Assembly (NCBI RefSeq): GCF_963662255.1
Contig: NC_085055.1
Location: 21,066,704 to 21,130,703 of the forward strand
Reading direction: 5' to 3'
DNA length: 64,000 nt
Origin: Cinclus cinclus
Taxonomy: Eukaryota; Chordata; Aves; Passeriformes; Cinclidae
The position numbers and the translations under genes were made by a program. Below are positions 7,246 to 60,213 of the stretch, piece after piece. The notes under the pieces are model-generated. The model did no database searches and was not told the DNA's origin. It worked only from the letters and a program-made list of their open reading frames with translations. Each line of letters starts with the position of its first letter. Position 1 is the stretch's first letter.

Positions 7246-8480
7246 CACCACTGCCCTTAAAGAAGTTTTTCTGGCTTCCCTAGCTGTGCAGGTGACCTAC
7301 TGGGAGCACCTTCCATCCACTGGAGTCCTCCCAGCTCCACGTTTGAGTCCATCTCCACCACAGAACTATCCCCAAAGCTGTTTAAATGGCCATATTAATT
7401 TAACAGCAAGATGAGCTCATGGGAAAGGATGCTTCCTCTGCAAATCGAGGCTTACACCATGAGGCAGGACACACCAGAGGAAGGAGCAGATCTGAGCTGG
7501 AAGAAATAAGATGGAAAAGCAGAACTGTTTCATCTTGATCCTGCCACGGTCCTGAAAATTGTCTTGAAAGTTTTCCCAGGGAGAAGCTAGCAAAGGACTG
7601 AAATAGTTTGCTTTAAGATATAATCCTTTTAATAAAATGTGAGGGTCAGAATTTCACGTTGGAACTGAACATTTTGCTAAATAGGGCATGATGAGTTTGC
7701 TGTTCTGCTCCAGGACTGGGCGCTCGTGCTCGTGTGGCGTGGGGGATAATAATTGCATGAAATCACCATCTCTGCCAGGGCTGGGGCAGGTTGAGCACTC
7801 CAAAGTGTAACAGCTCCTGAGCTCAAAGGATTCCTCTTCATTTCACAGACCTCACTAACATAAACTTCTGCCTTGACAACAAAAAAAAATTCCAGAGAAA
7901 ATGAAGAAAAAGTTCAGCTTTTGCAGATCTTCATTGTCTCGCTCATCAGGGGCACCATGGAGATCTGAACACTGAAATCATTTCATTTTATCCCTACAAA
8001 ACTATTCACTTTCATACAGGTTTCTCATGCAATAAAAAGGGGATTTGCTCATGGATAATTCTGCTGATTCCAAAAGCTGCATTTCTGTCTCAGAAATCGG
8101 CATTTTCAGCCAAATCTCATTGCTTTCCTCTTGATTTAGATGTGACACAGGCTTGGAGTTGGGCAGAAATGGGACTGTCTGTGACATGTTGTTGATGGGG
8201 CTTGGGAGTGGCTGTCCTCCAGAGCCATGTTGGGTTTTTTAGCATCTCTTTATGTTACCTGCTGTCCAGGCCTGTTTTCCCAGGAATATTTTTGAGATTA
8301 ATAAACAAGGGAATACATATTAGAGAAGAGAGGTGAAGCCAATTTCCACCTATTAGAGAGTCAAGGGCAGTATTTTATTTTTTGGCAGAATTATTTTATT
8401 TGACCCTGTATCTGGACCCGGAGCACTCTTTTTTAGGGTAGAGATGGTTTCACCATTTTCCATTTTAGTTTTTCATTTTC
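7246..8480. other. Unique non-coding sequence
   Basis: No gene or recognised repeat. Open frames do not exceed about 73 codons. Confidence 0.5.
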
Positions 8481-19531: not shown

Positions 19532-20689
19532 GCTCACAGGGATAAAAAAAGGATAACTGGATCCATGAAAATAAGCCAAGCACTGCCATCGTCGGTCTAA
19601 ATGCAGATAAGTATTGTACTGAAAACAAAGATTACTTGTACTTTGTAGATAGAGACGTGTTTTGTTACAGGATGCTTTGTATGGAATTGGGTCACAGCAG
19701 AATATGAGCCAACTCCCCCCCGCCCGCCTCCTCCCAACCTCCCTCTCCGCCTGCCTATCCTTTGAATCTGGAGCCAAATCTCAAGGGTAATGGAGAAGAA
19801 ATTGCTACAGTTTCGCCGTTTTTTTCCCTTGGCTGGGATTTGCTTTTCATTTGTGGGGCAATACTCGCGCCTCTCTGCCATTCATCTATTAATTAATATC
19901 ATTGATTAGGAGCTGCTGCTGCTCAGCCTTGTGTCTGCAAACCTCTGGAGGGAGTGGGGGAGGTGAGGTGCATCCAAAGGATCCCAATCTCAAGTGCCAA
20001 GGGAAGCACCAAAGCTTTGCTACCCTGCCCTGGCCTCACAGCCCCTCATCATGGCTTTGTGTGCTGTCACATCCTCTTTGGCCATCACCTCGGCATTCGG
20101 CCACCTGCTTCTCTTTCCCCAAAGCAAAGCAGCTCCTGATGGCCTTCAGGAGCTCTCCTGTGCCAGGAAAGAGTTTGCACCCACATTGTTTATGGGTACT
20201 ACAGCCTGCCCTTTGTGGTTATTCCAGTCCATGACTTGGGCACCTTCTACTGAAATTTGTCAGCAAACCAAAGTTAACGCCCAAGACCTTGGCCAGCCTA
20301 AACCTTTCTAAATCCCAGGCTTCTCCATTCTTATCCAAGACATGACAACCGAGATCAAGTGTCTCCAGAATCTTTCAATCTGTGCCTGCATGCTTCCCCT
20401 GGATTGTCTTCCTTGGTTCTGGATGCTGGCACTCCTGGGTGAGTGTATGACTTGTCATGAATGCCACAGAAGAAAGGACATCCAAATTCCAGCCATGCTT
20501 ACATGTAGGGGGTTGACCAAAAAGAGAGTTTTCTGATTCCTTGGAAACGCTGATTTCTTCTCCTTTCTCCTGACAAAACAAAAACTGCCCTTGGGACTCT
20601 TTCTAAGGAACCAAAGCACCATGTCCACAAATGTTTGTAACACAGCTGGAGACATGGATTACTTTTTTCTCCAGCTATGGAGGTAAAAA
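19532..20689. other. Non-coding; possible regulatory block near 19.78-19.93 kb
   Basis: 19780-19930 is repeat-free with CpGs (TTTCGCC, ACTCGCGCC) and a run of homeodomain-like cores (ATTAATTAATATCATTGATTAG). The rest shows nothing recognised; open frames of up to ~110 codons have no domain. Confidence 0.4.
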
Positions 20690-20851
20690 TTCCTTTTTTC
20701 TTTTCATTTTTCATTACTTTTTCTTTCTTTTTCTTTTTTTTCTATATTTTAGTTTTACTTTATTCCTTTTCTGTTGTTGTTGTTTTTCCCTTTTATTCTA
20801 GTTATTTTTTTTCTTTTTCTTTTTTCTATTTTCCTTCTGTTTTTTTTTTTA
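20690..20851. repeat. T-rich low-complexity tract, about 160 bases
   Basis: T-runs are broken by CTTT, ATTTT and a (GTT)4 unit near 20772. It yields a phenylalanine/serine-rich frame of 90 codons that mimics a membrane protein. Confidence 0.9.
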
Positions 20852-21458
20852 ACATGCAGAGTACCGAGGAGCATCACAGCCAGCAATGGGGCTTTGAGAA
20901 ATGGGCCAAAAAAGGCCCATCTCTGAAATTTGTGACCTCTGAGCTCTGACATAGCACCTAAGACTGGACCTACCAGCCTTCAATCAAAATTTCAATCAAG
21001 ATTCCCAGAAAATGTGAAACACCTTGTTTGTACAAAAGACAGGGAAGAATTTTGAGTTAGTGCGCTCTGGATGTCAATTGGAATGTGCAATATTGACTCT
21101 TGGTGTGATTGCTGCTCACTCTTTATTTTACCCATAAGAAGTCAAGCTTCCAGTGGCACAAGCTGGAAATTTGAGTGGATTTACATTTCCTTGCACTGTT
21201 AGCAGTGTCAGACCTACAATTGTTTTCAGGCATATGCCACCTGAACCACTCTGTGCCATATGGCATCTCCAAACCCTCTCTGATGTGTGGGACTTCCTCT
21301 CATGGAAGTTGCTCCCAGCAACCAACAGCCTGGGAACTGCAGGGTTTCAGAACCTTCCCTTTCCCACACCATGAACGAGGCACGATGGCTGGGACACCTC
21401 AAAACATGCCCAGTGTAGTCCAAGATGTCAAGGCCATGAGCTGCTGGACTTAAAATCT
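20852..21458. other. Unique non-coding sequence
   Basis: No gene or recognised repeat. Confidence 0.5.
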
Positions 21459-21594
21459 GCCTGGAGGTGTTCAAGGCCAGGTTGGATAAGACCATGAGCA
21501 ACCTGGTTTAGTGGGGGATGTCCCTGTCCATGGCAGGAATTGGGACTGGGTGGTCTTCAAAGTTCCTTCCAACCCTTATATGATTCCATGATTT
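21459..21594 (+). mobile_element. CR1 LINE 3' fragment
   Basis: GCCTGGAGGTGTTCAAGGCC, AGGTTGGATAAGACCATGAG, 'gtccatggcagg', AAAGTTCCTTCCAACCC, then the tail TATGATTCCATGATTTTT, a good octamer tail. Confidence 0.92.
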
Positions 21595-21830
21595 TTGCCA
21601 GCTAAAATAATGCATAGGCTGGGTTGGACCCTCTTAATCTCTCCAGGAAGTCCAGATGCCATTTCTTCAAAGAGGTCATTGCTTCCAGCTCTGAGTTTGG
21701 GGGGGTTCAAATTGGTTGAACGCCTGAGAGTTACTCAGATAAGGAGGTTTTTTTCTCCCAGTGCTGAGTCAGGTGTCACTTCCCTCCTGTCTCTGCACTT
21801 CACTCAGGGCCTGACCCAGCCCCATTAGAG
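21595..21830. other. Unique non-coding sequence
   Basis: Short spacer; nothing recognised. Confidence 0.5.
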
Positions 21831-21899
21831 CTGATGAATCCCCAGCGAGCACAGACGTCATGGCGTGGTGCAGCATAAAGTTTTTATGGGTGCATGTTG

Positions 21900-21956
21900 G
21901 GAATGAGGCGCATAACTCAGCGCTGCGGTGCCACTTGTGAGTAATGCGCCCATTCC
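21900..21956. other. Long imperfect hairpin of 18 paired bases
   Basis: The left arm is GGAATG (21900-21905), a bulged A, GGCGCAT (21907-21913), A, then ACTCA (21915-21919). The right arm is TGAGT (21938-21942), A, ATGCGCC (21944-21950), then CATTCC (21951-21956). Eighteen bases pair, with one A-A mismatch and one bulge, around an 18-base loop. No repeat explains it. Options are a structured non-coding RNA, a small-RNA precursor, or a dyad-symmetric protein-binding element. Confidence 0.75.
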
Positions 21957-22205
21957 ACACTCGGCGGATAAAACCTTTATGACCCTCCACAGCTCCGGGT
22001 ATTGCATCTAATATATGCACCACTGTAATGACGAGCACTGAAAACCTGCTTTTTTAACCTGTTTTCTTCCCCCCCTTCACCTCCCTTTCTCCTTCCCACC
22101 CTTAAATACCCCTCCGCGGCTGCTTCCTGGCGCTCCGCTTCTGCTTTGTCAACTACCTGGGGAACCCACTCCATTGATATTCTGGACAAGGTTTTGATTT
22201 GGGGA

Positions 22206-22226
22206 AAAAAAAAAATAAAAAAAACA
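22206..22226. repeat. A-rich run
   Basis: A-run interrupted by a single T. Confidence 0.8.
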
Positions 22227-22720
22227 ACCCACACCACAGAGTGAGCGGCATAATTTAAAAATCAAAGAAATTCATTTCAGTAGTAAAAGGTTAACAGCCT
22301 TTAGGAGGAACACTTTTTAATCACCCACGTCTAGACTCTATCACTCGAATCACCGGCAGCGGGAGTGAAATATGGCTAAGCCCCCGTCACCAAACAGCAC
22401 CTAAAGACTGTTGTATTTAATCATGTCTGTGCACTAGTTATGGATTTTCATTATGATTCCCGATGCTGTTGCGCTGTGTAAAATATTAATATCCATAGTA
22501 ATGATGCATGAAGCTTGGAGTGTAATTTCTTCACTCTCCTTGTCTGATATTAAATTGTTACCACTTTATCATTTGTGTAGAACTGCACGTTTCAATTAAT
22601 CTTTCCGTATCAGCAGCCCTGATTAATATAGATCATGATTCATAAGCTTATCGTCACTATAGTTTTAACAGATCATTTATAAAGATCTTAAATTTCAGGG
22701 CCTGGGAGGCGCAGCCACTC

Positions 22721-22978
22721 CGTCCAAGGCTGTTCTCACTTCTTGCTCCAGCAGGTTTCTCCATTCACACAACTAATTCCAGGAAGGAAAATTAGCCAGA
22801 TAAAAATGCCTTCTTGATTTTTCTTTTTTTTTTTTTAACTTTCTTCAGACTCACCTGTAAACTTCTTCCATGTTCACCTCAAAAAGCAGGAGCTGTATGA
22901 GTACAGCTGCTCATCAGCTTTGGTTTTCCTTGCTTCTTCCCCTCCATGGGAGCTGCCCTGGTTCCTCACATGCGTTCT
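22721..22978. other. Unique non-coding sequence
   Basis: It contains a T-run near 22825. Nothing else is recognised. Confidence 0.5.
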
Positions 22979-23129
22979 CATGGAATCACAGCATTGTTTG
23001 AGTCAGAAGATTCCCTAAAGATCATCCAGTTTCACTTCCTGCCATGGGCAGGGACATCTTTCACTATCCCAGGTTGCTCCAAGCCCCATCCAGCCTGGCC
23101 TTGAACACTTCCAGGGGTGGGGCAGCTCC
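22979..23129 (-). mobile_element. CR1 LINE 3' fragment
   Basis: TGGAATCACAGCATTG, 'aaagatcatccagtttcac', CTGCCATGGGCAGGGAC, 'ccatccagcctggccttg' and GGGGTGGGGCAGCTCC. It is the last CR1 before a ~9.7 kb interval in which I see none. Confidence 0.92.
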
Positions 23130-24289
23130 TTGATAATTGCCAGTATTTTTCATGTCCATACGATGGTTAATTTTTGGTGTTACAAAGCCGTGCTGGAAGA
23201 GACCCGTGGGCTGAAAAATCACTGGGATTATGCACTTTCTGCTAGTCAGAAAGACTTTTTTCCACTTCACCCCTTCCCAAAACCTTTGCAAAATCATGGA
23301 GGGTTAATCTCTACATGTGCACGAAGAAGTGACCTCCTGCCAGATCCAGCCCTCCTTGTCCACATTATCCCAGATGCACAGCAGTCTGCCATTGCCCCAG
23401 CTGCAGCACAACGAGTGGCCAGGGCTCCTACAAGGCGATTTTCTTGGTGTTGGGAAGCGATTCCCACCCCCTGAGCTCCCCACAGAGAGGTCTGGCATTA
23501 CCCAGTGCAGAAACACGGGGGCTCCTCAGGCAGGATGCTCTCCAGCAGCGCGTGGAACAGATGTTTGCCTTGAAAATTAATGGCAGAAAGTGGGAAGGGC
23601 TGCTCAGCTGGGGATGAAGAGACAGCATCAGGCGTTTTCAGGACACTCTGATAATCGTGGTAATGAAGAACAGCGACCGATTAGTCATTTTTTAGTGGAT
23701 AGAGTTGGAAAAGACGCATTAGATAGTTTTAAAAATCCATCAAAGGTCCCTGTCTAGCTTTCTGTGTATTCTCCAGGGCTTTGTCAAGTGATCTTAAGTG
23801 TCTCAAATAATGGCGAGACTCATGAGACTATTTAAAATCCTAATAGATGATTTTTTTCCCCCCCTACTTACATATTTTCTTTGCTGACAGTCCCAGAATT
23901 CCTCATTACAACCCTCAGTTGTGATTTGCAATAGGATGTGGGGTTAACAAGGAGGAACAGCTCTGGAAATCCCACCGAGAGCCAGGTGTGAGACAGAGCA
24001 ATCAGACACCGAGCTTGGTAGGGGCAGGGGCATGGAAAAGCTGGGAATTAACAAATCCCTGCCATTTTCTCCCTCACCTCTGTGCCCGTGGTACCGCTGA
24101 GTGTAGGTGAAGCACAACTCCAAGGAGCCCCTCCTCGTTGGAGTAGGATATGGTGGGCTCCTCTCCTATCTGCTTCTCACCCCTGTGCCAAAACTGGTGT
24201 GATGATGGCAAGGCTACGGTGTTTTATTAACCTCCTGCACAACCCGACTAACCCAGGGGAAGGGGAAAAACCCTGGGAAGTATACATCC
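23130..24289. other. Non-coding; possible regulatory block 23.63-23.95 kb
   Basis: 23630-23950 is repeat-free with motifs such as TGATAATCGTGG, GACTCATGAGAC and CAAGTGATCTTAAGTG. Otherwise no gene or repeat is recognised. Overlapping frames of up to 114 codons occur near 23.3 kb. Confidence 0.4.
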
Positions 24290-27480: not shown

Positions 27481-30400
27481 ACCAAATGTTAATATCCAGG
27501 CGGGATCACAGTGGTGATTGGAATGATGGTGCAGTCTGGGGGAGGTTGACCACAATCCTGCCCTTTCTGCACAGAAGTTTCAAAACTTTGTAGATGTCAC
27601 CAATTTTGGAGAAGAGAGCTGGAATATGGTGGTGGATTAAGCCATGAAGCAGGACCAGAGCTGTCTAAAGTCACCTCCCCACATTTGGTTCCTTCCTGCT
27701 CCATCTGGAGTCATTTGGAGCAGGAGGTTCAGTCCCTCCTGAATGGGACCACATCTCTGCTGGGTATCCAGTGACTAGAGAGTCCAGAGATTCCTCTGGA
27801 AAACAGGCTTCTCTTTTCACTTTCTATGGTCGTGGGAACCACATCTGAATAACAACTTACCTCTGAGTTATGAAAAGGAATAGATCCTTTAATAATCGAG
27901 TGATTATTAAATGTTAAATATTTATCACTTCTCTGCGCACGTGACTCTAAATTCCAGAGATTTAGCAGCACCAGCAGCAGTTTGGGTTGATTCCCATTGT
28001 CCCATTCAGCTTCATATCCTCCCAGATTCCAGCAGACTACAAGGGTGATAGCAGGATGGAATCAATACCTCCTTTGTAGAAAAGTCTATAGCCATGTACG
28101 AAGAGAATTCCCAGCACCCTTTGCTCCAGAAAAATCTGCATAGAGTTTCCCATTTCTGTTCCATTGGTGCCACCTATTGGTAAGTGCACATGTCATTCCA
28201 TGGAAACTCATTTTCCTGGAGGAGCTGTGACAGAGACATGTGCCTCTCACCAAAGGTGGCCAGATGTGGTAATGACATAGGCACCATCTGGCGCAGGTAG
28301 AGACCAAACTCCTTTGGTCCCATCCCCACTGACCATTTTCCACCAAGTTCAGTTCCCTTGAACCTTTACTCAAACCTCTTGGTGCAGCTGAGTTGAGTAG
28401 AAAATTCAGCAGGCTGGATTCTGCTTGGCCTGGACACCACTTTTGTCCTCTGGAAAAGACCAGTGGCTCGTCTGTCCCACAAGCAGGATGTGGTGTCCCT
28501 TGGAGTCTGCCCAATCCTAGGGGGATCTGACCTTCACAAAACCTCTCCTTGGTTCCAGATTTTTCTGACCCAGTGATTTAGCCACCAAAGCCTCAGTGTG
28601 ACGTTCTTAATGCCGGGTATCCATCCACAGGGCAAGTTCCCAGGTGGAGTTTGCTAATATTACTTCCAGGAAATGGGAAAAATCCTTCTCTATGTGATTT
28701 ATTTTGATGTTCCTGTTGAATAGTTAACCCTTATCAAGAATATTCTCTTTCTCCATTGACCAGGTCTTCTTTTGGAAGACTTCCCAGACAAAATGGAGGA
28801 AGGGAAAGAAAAGGAAAAATCCCTCATTTATGAAGATTAATAGTTATTGCAGATTACTTTATCTCCCTGCAGAGCATCTCCCAGGAAATCCATTAGGCAA
28901 CTTTGGGAAAGAGAATGAAGCTCAGCTGGAGTGTCACCAAACTTTGCCAGGCAGGAGACCTGTCCACAGGCACACTGAGCTTCTCTGCTCAGTTCAGACC
29001 CGGAAAAGATTAAAAGTCAGATTCCAGCAGGATACCCAGGGACATCGGCAATCCCTCAGTCAGGTCCTTATGCCAGATCCTCCTCCAGTTTAAGCAAAAC
29101 ATTTGTTTCCTCAGCTCTTTCCTCCTTGCTGATGCTGTTGCCAGATTTTTAGGAAGTGGAGACGAAGATCAGAGGGAGAATTTGTGGCCTGGATAACCTC
29201 GGGAGAGTCCCAGAGTCCTGCACCCAGTGATCCTATAGGATCCGCAGGCACAGAGGGAATTCCCTTGTGCAATCCAGGGGCATCACCCTGATCCCACCTT
29301 GGCTTCCAAGGAGCAGCACATGACCCCAGATTGCCCCAAATTCGTGGATGAATCAGAATGAGTCCTGCTGAGAACACACTTTATCCATGTTCCCATCTGA
29401 GGAGTCATTCCTAGCAATGCCTTCTCCCCCATCATTTTCCATGAAGGCTGGAGCCAGCCCAGAAAGGTGCTGTTCAGCATCCTGATCACCTCCACCCCAC
29501 CATTTCCAGAATTCCCCAGCTCTCCCAGAGCCCCCTGTCTCTGATCCCAACCCAGCCCTTCCCGTCCCTTATACTTTCATTTCTGTTTCTTTACATCTTT
29601 ATTAAACTGTATAGCCACTTTGATAGGAAAATTGAAAAGAAAAAGATATGAGGAACAACAAAAAAAGCCATAATTATGAAGATTCAATTTAATTTTAAAG
29701 GTTGTGGAAGGAGGAAAAAAAAAAAAAGAAGCAGGAGAAGAAGAAACCAAATTAATTTAGCAGGAAAGCATTGCATGAAATATTGTTGGAGTTTAATAAC
29801 CATGCAAAGACAGATGATATGTGTGGAAAAATTAGTTGTAGGACCTCATAATAGTCTATTAATATTTTCTACAGGCACAGAAACCCTTTGCTGAATGATT
29901 GTAACAAAGTAATCTTTTTTTTTTTTTAAGACATTAAAAAATATCTTCAAAAGGAGAAGACGGCAGCAATGTACAGATTGTAAGGAACGGAGACCCCGGC
30001 GGGGTGGGAGAGATCCCAGGAGAGATCCAGCACCAGCTGCTCTGCTCTGCCACCACCGAGGGTCTCCTAGCTGTCCCAAATGGTGGGACAAGACCCCCTG
30101 CAAGGTGTCTCTCCCCAGTTTCCCACTGGTGGGACCACCCACCCAAATACCTAAATGCCAAAGGCCGGGCAGCGGGAGGGGCCAAGCGCAGCGGGAGCCG
30201 ATGGGTCGGGGTGAAGAGAGATCCACAGAGGGGCCCACGGCCATTCCCACACACAAACTGCACTGCTCCCTTCCCTTCCATTCCTGGGAGAGGTTGGACA
30301 CAGCTCTGTTCCCCTCCATCCTTGGCTGTGACCTCACAGCTCTGTTTTCTGCAGATCCCCCAGAACCTCCCTGACCTCCACAGCCGGGTCTGTGTCACCA

Positions 30401-43653: not shown

Positions 43654-44084
43654 AGTCCTCCAGGGATGTGGGAATCATTGCTGGGAGAACAAAAGCCATC
43701 TTGGGAAAACCAACATCTCTCAACAAAAGGGAAAAATCTTTCCCCACAGCTTCCCAGCAACCCACAGCATGAACCCAACAGCCTGGTCCCAGAGCCCGGC
43801 TGGGATGCACTCAGCACGGTCACCTGGATCCTGTGTCCTTCCCAGCACCTCTCCCTGGCTGGTTTCCTGCGTTTCCCACTCCAACACCACCCCCGGTTCC
43901 TCCCTTGCCCGTCCGGCCAATGAATCCAACCCGGGAGGAGCAGCTCCTGCTCTCCAGAGCAGCACATTCCCCAGTCCCGCTCCCTGCCCACCCCCTTCTT
44001 TCCCTTCCAGCCAGACTTCTGTCGAGTTGCTAATGTCTGCTGATTAAACAAGCCTTGAATTTGAATAGGGAGCAATAAAGAGAG

Positions 44085-44196
44085 AGCGAGAGAGAGGTAC
44101 ACGGCCATCCGCGCACGGAGCGGGCGCCCCGCGGGCAGCAATCAACGGGAGCAGGAGATGCTCCAGCCGAGCTGCCGGCTCCCAGGATTTCGGGAG
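44085..44196. promoter_or_regulatory. Small CpG-dense patch
   Basis: Roughly twelve CpGs in 110 bases, in a window where CpG is otherwise scarce. It is shorter than a classical CpG island. It may be a regulatory element or a weak promoter. No TATA box or gene is attached. Confidence 0.35.
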
Positions 44197-44216
44197 GGAG
44201 GGTCATAGGGTGGTTT

Positions 44217-44230
44217 GGGGGGGGGGGGGG
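44217..44230. repeat. G14 homopolymer
   Basis: Fourteen consecutive G residues. Length may be uncertain, since such runs often collapse in assemblies. Confidence 0.8.
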
Positions 44231-44454
44231 TTATTAATCGAACGCAATGCTCAGAAACCTGAGAAAGTCTTGTTCTCCGTGCCTGGAGGTGTCTCATGGG
44301 GGGCAGCCCCCCAGCCCAGCTCCGGGTGATGCTGTGCTGGCTCCACCTTCAAGGAGCAGCTCCTCTCTGCAAAAAAAATGGGATCTCTGATATGTCCTGT
44401 GCACGGTGAAACAGGGTGGCGTGGGGCTGAAGGATTTCCACAATACAGAAGGGA

Positions 44455-44548
44455 ATCGTGGAGTCGTGGAATTACAGAGCCACAAGATGGTTTGGGTTTG
44501 GAAGGGACATTAAAGCTCATCTCATTCCAACCCCCAACATGCAAACCG
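44455..44548 (-). mobile_element. CR1 LINE 3' fragment, very short
   Basis: GAATCGTGGAGTCGTGGAAT, ACAAGATGGTTTGGGTTTGG, 'agctcatctcattccaaccc'. Only the terminal ~90 bases remain. Confidence 0.9.
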
Positions 44549-45233
44549 AGCAGGGATCGGTGGCAGGGAAAAATGGAGGGGTGCACATCTTCCCAAATCA
44601 TCCTCAGCTCCCTAACTGTGCCTACAAATACAGCAGGGAGGGGGAAACAGCTGATGCCAGACCCAGGAGGGAATTTTTGGGGATGCTCCCGGGCACCTCC
44701 TCCCTTCCGAGCCGAGTGCAGCCCAGCCCGGTGCTGCTCAGAGCTGGCAGCCTGCAGCCACACAGGGAACTTCTTCCCTCCCACCCCAGACAGTTTTCCC
44801 GAGAAAACTGCCATTTCTGTGAGATCTGGAGATGTTTTCCCTGCCAGCAACAACGACAGGCTGCTAAATGGTGTCAGCGACTCGCTGTCTGAGTCCCGGT
44901 TAAAATAAACCATCATCTTCACACCAGTGGCGTTTCACATCATCAGCACCAGGCTGGCTCCACTCAGGAATAGACATCCCTTTAATTATATAAATCAAAA
45001 TAAATAAAATATCACGCCCTCGGGCCCACTGCAGAGCGTTGTGGCTGATAGGAAAGCTCTGGGAGGCAGAGTGGGTTTGGGAAGAGGCAGCTCCTTGTGC
45101 TGCACAGCTGAGGGGAGGAAGGAAAAGCTGAAATGATCAAACCCACGTCTGGAAGCTGCTGAGAGAGCCCATAGCTGGGAAATAAATTGTCTCAGATTAA
45201 AAAAAAAAAAAAATCACAAGCAAATAGTTGGGA
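44549..45233. other. Unique non-coding sequence
   Basis: Open frames of up to 223 codons cross this part and the CR1 copy next to it; none has a domain. An A-run lies at 45198-45213. Confidence 0.45.
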
Positions 45234-54080: not shown

Positions 54081-54157
54081 TGATGATGATATGATATGAT
54101 ATGATATGATATGATATGATATGATATGATATGATATGATAGATATGATATGATGGA
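54081..54157. repeat. (ATGAT)n microsatellite at a CR1 tail
   Basis: TGATGATGAT is followed by ten perfect ATGAT units (54091-54140) and two imperfect ones. Confidence 0.95.
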
Positions 54158-56611
54158 TAGGCTATTACGAAAGTGTAAAAGTGTATTTGTAGAAGTGTTA
54201 CAAATCTTTGTACAGGAATGTAAAAAACCTTTGTTAAGCTGCCCCTGCGATCCCCAGCCCTACCACCAAGGCATCAATGGGAGCAGAACCTGCAAACACT
54301 TCTGAACCTGACCCCATTTCTGAAAGAAACTCTTCAGGAAACCACAGTGCTGAGAGACTGCTGAAGGCAGCCCTCAGCAGGATCAGAAATCCTTCATGGA
54401 AGGGTCATGGAATCTAAAAATAGATCACACGTCTCCAAACATGGTGAACTGAGCTCTCACAGGTTGGAGAAACAGGATCTCTCACACCAGGGACTCCACA
54501 GCCCAGATGATCTCCCTGGGGCACTGGACACAGAGGACATCCCATCCCCAGGCTCTGTGGTGGTGCCCTTCGGCAGTGTTTCTGGGGCCATGGAGATCTT
54601 TCAGCACCCAATGTCCCCTCCCTGGTATCTCCCACAGTGAAAAGTTGCCACCTGCAACCTCACCCTGAACAGCAAAATAGTGCCAGAAAGAGGTGAAAAT
54701 GGCAAGGAATGGGTGGTGGAGGCAGATTCCAGGACTGGGCGCTCCCTTTGTGCACTATGGTCGAGCCCCAGATCCAGGCCATGGGATTTCCTCACCTGCA
54801 CCAGGGGACCAGAATCCACTCAGGAAATAGTGGGAAGGAAACATGGATGTCTCTCAAGAAACTTCCTGTTTAAAAAGGCAAAGGAAATTGAGCAACTACA
54901 AGGATTTAGCAGCATTCAGAACATTTTGGCTGAGGTGCTTCACTCTGAGTTGGAAAAGTGTCTTACCTGTCCCAAGCATCATTTTATTCTCTGGTGTGCA
55001 AATCCTTCCACCAGGGCACATGCAGGGGAGGTGGAAGGTGCCCAGCACAGTTTGCAGTGGTATAATCTACTCCAAGGAGATCCTCTCCACCTTGTCCTCC
55101 AGTACCTGGTCCCTCTATCCTGGTCTGGATGGCAGAACATAAATACACCAGTTGGATGTGCACATTAAACCAAGACTAAAGCTTCAGCTGGGGCTGTATC
55201 CAATTCTTTGGCACATCAAGGATGGGAAAGGAGGCACGGATGGCTTGTTCACTAACCCACGCTCTCCCTGCCAGAGAGCTGTGCCAGAAGTTATCAAGAA
55301 AGCTGCAAAATGAAAGCATGATATGCTGTGTTAATTATGTGTGCTTGGATATTTTTGTTTTCACAAATGTTTTGCCTTTTAGTAAATATTCTTTAGCATC
55401 TCTGTTGTCCCATTGCAGAGCAGTCAGCTGTGAAAATGATCTCCTCATCCTGGTTAACTCTGTCAGTGCCACACATAGGACATTCCCTGTCTAGCTAGGC
55501 CAGCTTGAAAGAGCTCATGGGGTTGGAGGGACCAAGGACACGCTCTGGCAGAGGTGTGGGAGGAAGTTTAGTGGCACCTGTGAGCAGTCTGTGTCTTTTA
55601 CATGCTGGTAATTCAAGCATCACAGTAGTCCAGTAGTTTCTCAAAGATTTTCCCCACCTGAAGCAAAGAAACAAGTTGGTCTGGACCCCTCCAAAAGCGA
55701 GACATTTTGGATGTGCCTCTCACACCCATGGTTGCCCCTTACACCAGTCACACCACGTCTGTAAGGAGCCTGGAAAACTCCTTCCCCTTCGTGTTAATTG
55801 TACCCTCTTTGAATAAATGCACAAAGCCTTTGACTGGAGGTGTGTAAATATTTACAGGGCGTGCCCAAGGAGGGTCAGAAACCAATACATCACCTGAGGG
55901 AAGAATACAAGCTCAGCGACCGTGAAGCCCTGAGCAATTACAGTTAAGTAACTGCAATACCAGCACATATTTAAGTACTTATGCAAGGAAAAGGGGCTGA
56001 TGACCTCGATTATATTTGCATTGTGTTTCCTGTTGTTAGCACTTCCTTGGCAGAATTACTGCAATACATCTTGGACTCCAATTTCATCTGCCAGCTCCAC
56101 GAGACTGCAACCAGCCTTTGGAGAGGTCCAAAAATGCTTAGGAGTCAGGCTGTATTTCTTCTTGTACAGCTCCTCTGTCTCGGCAGCTGCTCATGTCTCC
56201 AAACCGCCTTGTCAAGGAGAGCAGCAGGAGAAAATTTGCCCCAAAGCTCCTCTGAAATTCAGGAACCAACCTCAGCAAACAGGCAATGAAACCTTTACCT
56301 GGCTGGATCATGACTTCCCAGATGAAATGCTCCATGGAATGCGACATTTCAGAATAGGTTGCTTGATGTTATTTAAGAAAAAAAGCAGCTTTATAACTTT
56401 TTGTCTCAAGTAAAACCACAAAAATTTCATAGCTCTAGCCTGGGGGAAGGAACCTTTTGCAGAGAATTATAAATCTATTTGCAGATGATTTCTCACCTGA
56501 AGACTCCATGTAGGTAGACACCCCCCAAAAAAATAAAATGTTGTAAGGTGAAAGACCAAGGAGCTGTTAAATGCCATAATCAGGGTGTTTGTTTTCTCAA
56601 GCCTGGAGAGA
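54158..56611. other. Unique non-coding sequence, 2.4 kb
   Basis: Frames up to 162 codons (54680-55168 +) have no recognised domain. No repeat is recognised. Confidence 0.45.
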
Positions 56612-59935: not shown

Positions 59936-60213
59936 CATCCCATCCCGTCCCGTCCCTTCCCATCCCGTCCCGTCCCGTCCCATCCCATCCCATCCCGTCC
60001 CGTCCCGTCCCGTCCCGTCCCGTCCCGTCCCGTCCCTTCCCATCCCGTCCCGTCCCGTCCCGTCCCGTCCCTTCCCATCCCGTCCCATCCCGTCCCGTCC
60101 CTTCCCATCCCGTCCCATCCCGTCCCATCCCATCCCATCCCGTCCCATCCCGTCCCATCCCATCCCATCCCATCCCATCCCATCCCATCCCATCCCATCC
60201 CATCCCATCCCAT
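59936..60213. repeat. 55-unit pentamer array (CATCC/CGTCC/CTTCC)
   Basis: About 276 bases of five-base units: 26 CATCC, 25 CGTCC and 4 CTTCC by my count. CTTCC always sits between CGTCC-CGTCC and CATCC. The left and middle parts are CGTCC-rich; the right ~60 bases are almost all CATCC. The minus strand is (GGGAT/GGGAC)n with GGG every five bases, ideal for G-quadruplexes. Long open frames here (up to 277 codons, GWDGM repeats) are artefacts of a five-base period without stop codons. Confidence 0.97.

Follow-up and report, generated by a model that had tools for sequence, protein, structure and literature searches.

A 126-base imperfect palindrome at the edge of a CpG-retaining, candidate regulatory block in the genome of Cinclus cinclus

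Conservation is the defining property of vertebrate conserved noncoding elements and developmental enhancers and, to our knowledge, a palindrome of 126 bases is not a usual hallmark of such sequences. MicroRNA precursors are imperfect hairpins whose stem of 33–35 pairs, roughly three turns of the helix, is nearly uninterrupted and whose MFEI is typically ~0.85 or more. Non-autonomous DNA transposons of the MITE type consist of inverted arms about a short centre. With regard to ancient repeats, PMC5753468 places the Eulor and UCON families of the human genome in Repbase and classes Eulor5 and Eulor6 as Crypton relics, and PMC3500645 gives 130 conserved repeat families common to mammals and chicken. 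The locus described here, found in a stretch of 64,000 nucleotides from Cinclus cinclus (hereafter, the window), shares features with each of these systems and differs from each as well.

An earlier note on this DNA had reported a hairpin of three stems, interrupted by a bulge and an A-A mismatch, around an 18-base loop, and the sequence bears out this anatomy to the base. The inner left arm (21900–21919, plus strand) reads GGAATG-A-GGCGCAT-A-ACTCA and the inner right arm (21938–21956, plus strand) TGAGT-A-ATGCGCC-CATTCC, with the loop at 21920–21937. Stem 1 pairs GGAATG (21900–21905) with CATTCC (21951–21956), stem 2 pairs GGCGCAT (21907–21913) with ATGCGCC (21944–21950), and stem 3 pairs ACTCA (21915–21919) with TGAGT (21938–21942); the irregularities of the inner stem are the bulged A at 21906 and the A-A mismatch 21914/21943. 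Both arms and the loop are seen in the fold as well as in the sequence. When the plus strand is folded, the inner stem comprises 20 pairs, and a mini-stem appears within the loop, where GCGC (21920–21923) meets GTGC (21928–21931) in four pairs, one of them G-U.

The extent of the element, however, had been missed: the reported core is real but makes up only the inner half of an inverted repeat that spans 21865–21990. Local alignment of the left arm against the reverse complement of the right arm, together with a fold of 21840–22020, delineates an imperfect palindrome of 126 bases, with arms at 21865–21919 and 21938–21990 and an alignment score of 47. In that fold, the outer stem, which was absent from the earlier note, has 13 pairs and joins the outer left arm CATAAAG-T-TTTTAT (21874–21887, plus strand) to the outer right arm ATAAAA-C-CTTTATG (21968–21981, plus strand), i.e., CATAAAG to CTTTATG and TTTTAT to ATAAAA; beyond it, GTGG/CCAC completes the palindrome. 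The segment between the outer and inner stems matches poorly (21888–21899 on the left, opposite 21957–21967 on the right). Over 21874–21919 and 21938–21981, the arms are identical in 36 of 47 alignment columns, and a single 12-column run accounts for 7 of the 11 differences, a clustering that is weak by permutation (p 0.04). Other imperfect palindromes in the window include a long one at 28149–28281 (arms 28149–28194 and 28235–28281, score 36), which is not among the listed tandem repeats, and one at 7895–7992 with arms of ~40 bases (score 37).

Folding, which had been proposed as a check, gives −35.8 kcal/mol and a z-score of −3.8 for a 77-base stretch on the plus strand, equalled by 1 of 200 shuffles, and −33.5 kcal/mol with a z-score of −3.5 on the minus strand, where none of 200 shuffles is as good. 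Over the 181 bases 21840–22020 of the plus strand, the fold stands out less, with a z-score of −2.0 and an equal or better energy in 6 of 200 shuffles. The matched core and outer stems consist of Watson-Crick pairs only, which is no strong argument either way because this property is built into a search for reverse-complement identity, and free folds of a 136-base stretch do include G-U pairs (3 of 48 on the plus strand and 2 of 47 on the minus strand).

With its score of 47, the palindrome ranks first in the 64-kb window, where the runner-up (41) lies within a TGATA tandem array, and none of 20,000 local shuffles of 201 bases reaches this value. Both observations argue against chance symmetry, that is, against the explanation that a regulatory block carries a good inverted repeat by accident, the symmetry itself being functionless. 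In favour of chance, shuffling within 500-base blocks yields a match for the full palindrome in 4 windows out of 500, and shuffling of the whole window does so in 3 out of 500, ~0.7% per 64 kb, so that many such palindromes are expected genome-wide, probably on the order of a hundred in a genome of ~1 Gb. The core on its own, which the earlier note had placed far beyond chance, does not stand out to that degree: its score of 30 (with arms of up to 30 bases) is equalled or beaten in 65 of 400 block-shuffled windows. Places scoring at least 30 with arms of up to 30 bases number 0.18 on average per shuffled window and two in the real window, the second of these being a TGATA tandem array near 54111.

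Chance symmetry is also favoured by nine other listed places in the window with an equal or better folding z-score. A scan of 6392 80-base windows, of which the best 220 were refined and the best 24 distinct places listed (z being set to zero where shuffle energies were nearly constant), ranks the hairpin about tenth among the listed distinct places, and this in its best phase (z −4.0, minus strand, 21881–21960); the other five combinations of phase and strand give z-scores of −3.5, −3.2, −2.7, −2.5 and −2.3. Among the nine places ranked above it, 60001–60080 and 54081–54160 are inside tandem arrays and 20641–20720 overlaps one. The palindrome is moderately unusual, then: it stands out within the window, yet chance would be expected to yield many of its kind per vertebrate genome. 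We regard chance symmetry as a serious explanation, if on balance an unlikely one, given also that the palindrome coincides with a CpG-retaining block, although this coincidence was spotted post hoc.

That block, a candidate regulatory element with the palindrome at its left edge, extends over ~880 bases (21846–22721) and contains 28 CpGs. The CpG observed/expected ratio (o/e) is 0.62 over 21800–22600 against 0.18 for the whole window. In 300-base bins, it amounts to 0.67 at 21900–22199, 0.73 at 22200–22499 and 0.45 in the next bin, to 22799, compared with 0.07–0.22 in the five bins on the left (20400–21899) and 0.07 in the bin on the right (22800–23099). The block is not the sole CpG-retaining stretch here, since the bin 23400–23699, some 700 bases to its right, has an o/e of 0.48, and with a GC content of 0.44, the segment 21800–22600 is not a classical CpG island. 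An 800-base stretch beginning at 21865 ranks within the top 0.17% when the window is ordered by CpG o/e, and within the top 2.8% when it is ordered by CpG count; ranked by count, stretches of 126–800 bases from 21865 reach the top 1.4–2.8% only, and a 400-base CpG peak at 21738 is third in the window.

In agreement with the description of the hairpin as lying outside any repeat, neither self-comparison of the window nor a tandem-repeat scan reveals a repeat that covers it, and the same holds for the whole of 21846–22721. The nearby repeat at 21460–21593, which we take to be the 3' end of a CR1 element, is matched at as many as four further places in the window and ends before the block. The retention of CpGs provides independent support for the earlier impression of a regulatory-looking block, and suggests that the block could be a constrained or hypomethylated regulatory element; CpG retention can, however, come from hypomethylation without selection on the sequence. 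Like vertebrate conserved noncoding elements and developmental enhancers, the block is several hundred bases long, free of window repeats and of moderate GC content, with its CpGs retained; unlike them, it is characterised from a single sequence.

On these grounds, our tentative preference is for paired protein-binding sites, in which case the palindrome would act as DNA at the edge of an enhancer-like element. This is the symmetric binding element that the earlier note had offered among several options, and we favour it on indirect evidence. Under this reading, short protein-binding sites would be repeated in mirror image, one set per arm, and two copies of one factor, or a pair of factors, might bind in inverted orientation ~30–45 bases apart; the working form would most likely be double-stranded DNA. 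A role at the DNA level is favoured by the similar folding of both strands and by the arrangement of well-matched patches of the arms around a poorly matching middle. The first rank of the palindrome in the window, the few shuffled windows that reach its score and the CpGs kept by the block, including a mirrored one on the two arms, also count for this reading. We infer from the palindrome and the CpG retention that the block may be an enhancer, that the arms may hold its binding sites and that their symmetry may matter.

The motif content of the arms was surveyed with eight strings, chosen by eye, which we read as sites of TEAD, NRF1, CDX/HOX, AP-1 or C/EBP-ATF. CATTCC, presumably the core string of TEAD sites, occurs in mirror image across the arms (21900 on the minus strand, 21951 on the plus strand). 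TGCGCM, containing TGCGC, which we take to be the core string of NRF1 sites, is present at 21907 (minus) and 21945 (plus) and occurs 10 times in the window when both strands are counted; a mirrored CpG is kept on both arms (21909 and 21947). TTTATKR is found at 21883 and 21976 on the same strand, i.e., not in mirror image, and TGAGTMA on a single arm only. Just beyond the palindrome, at 22001–22008, lies ATTGCATC, in our estimation close to a C/EBP-ATF composite site. For TGACGTCA, TGASTCA and ATGCAAAT, there is no site within 21800–22060. The paired motifs are not independent evidence for binding, because a palindrome automatically doubles any string that it contains. Should the block prove to be a conserved enhancer, its palindrome would make selection on the symmetry itself simple to test.

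The arms could, instead, have been inherited from an ancient repeat with inverted arms, either a relic of a MITE-like DNA transposon or a member of a low-copy family of the Eulor/UCON type, that was later kept as regulatory DNA. The size of the palindrome, its inverted arms and its constrained-looking setting would all be compatible with such an origin, and its organization as arms about a short centre is that of MITE-like elements. Like the Eulor and UCON families of Repbase, it is short and noncoding and lies in surroundings that may be under constraint. Against this origin, self-comparison finds no second copy in the 64-kb window: the only matches of the palindrome, other than to itself, are between its two arms in inverted orientation and to short strings at E of at least 1.3. 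Furthermore, no target-site duplication with matching termini was detected among starts at 21855–21904 and ends at 21950–22000 (flanks of 3–10 bases, at least 8 of 10 terminal bases matching), a test that is insensitive to decayed or 2-base duplications; the longest flanking repeat, TTTATG, belongs to the arms themselves. The incomplete match of the arms noted above is another difference from MITE-like transposons. We therefore consider exaptation of an ancient repeat unlikely; should it be the case, the locus would be one more example of ancient repeats turned into regulatory DNA.

Another alternative is that transcription across the palindrome produces a structured RNA or a microRNA-like precursor, the inner stem of which would form a duplex of ~20 pairs. 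The hairpin is stable on both strands, as the z-scores of the 77-base stretch indicate, and the pairs of its inner and outer stems count in favour of an RNA. As an imperfect hairpin with a stem of ~20 pairs and an 18-base loop, it is reminiscent of microRNA precursors. It differs from these in its MFEI of 0.73–0.75 and in an interrupted lower stem, in which 12 by 11 bases of poor matching separate the two stems. Its rank of about tenth in the folding scan and the lack of a clearly favoured strand also speak against an RNA. A scan of the whole window with Rfam at the gathering level gave no matches, and none of the 10 matches obtained for 21600–22300 with E up to 10 is on the palindrome; in these scans, the palindrome corresponds to no described microRNA family. 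ARAGORN predicts no tRNA. The earlier proposal of a structured RNA or small-RNA precursor thus gains little from the analysis: given the unexceptional stability and the lack of a family match, an RNA is not the leading explanation, and we deem it quite improbable that the palindrome functions as one.

A more far-reaching reading would be a conserved palindromic regulatory element outside the described repeat and RNA families, with selection keeping the arms mirrored, whether a protein dimer uses them as an inverted platform or an RNA derived from the enhancer folds them into a hairpin. This is improbable. What has been gained is a redefinition of the element, which measures 126 bases and lies at the margin of the ~880-base block, along with a sober estimate of what chance produces; we see it as a modest lead.

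Searches for relatives were confined to microbial and viral collections and their misses are therefore uninformative on birds. The pattern of the hairpin occurs nowhere in the viral contigs and microbial genome contigs, a 28-base piece of the block has no match in either collection, and the pattern of the outer right arm is absent from the viral contigs. The pattern of the right arm, with 17 specified bases, was matched in three viral contigs, which we take as chance on a rough estimate of how large that collection is. By blastn, 21780–22520 has no match among plasmids or phages. In the literature, no report naming this locus was found in titles and the openings of abstracts; of the strings from the window that were searched for, GGCGCATAACTCA occurs in three published papers, and five others gave no match.

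As regards coding content, ten open reading frames elsewhere in the window, none of which overlaps the block, contain no Pfam domain above the cut-off; one sub-threshold match, to DUF4658, has an E of 0.029. Ranking the window by codon usage against a human table brings out no clear exon, and a 66-codon stretch that runs across the palindrome on the minus strand (21772–21969) has a modest score of 10.5. Coding-like codon usage is observed on both strands around 44080–44200, where three frames were tested and have no Pfam match. The surrounding segment, 43793–44900, is rich in CpG and GC, with 22 CpGs (o/e 0.61) in the 400 bases from 43793. Over 400 bases, CpGs are nowhere in the window more numerous than at a CATCC/CGTCC tandem array (59936–60213), which has a 30-base period and 9.2 copies.
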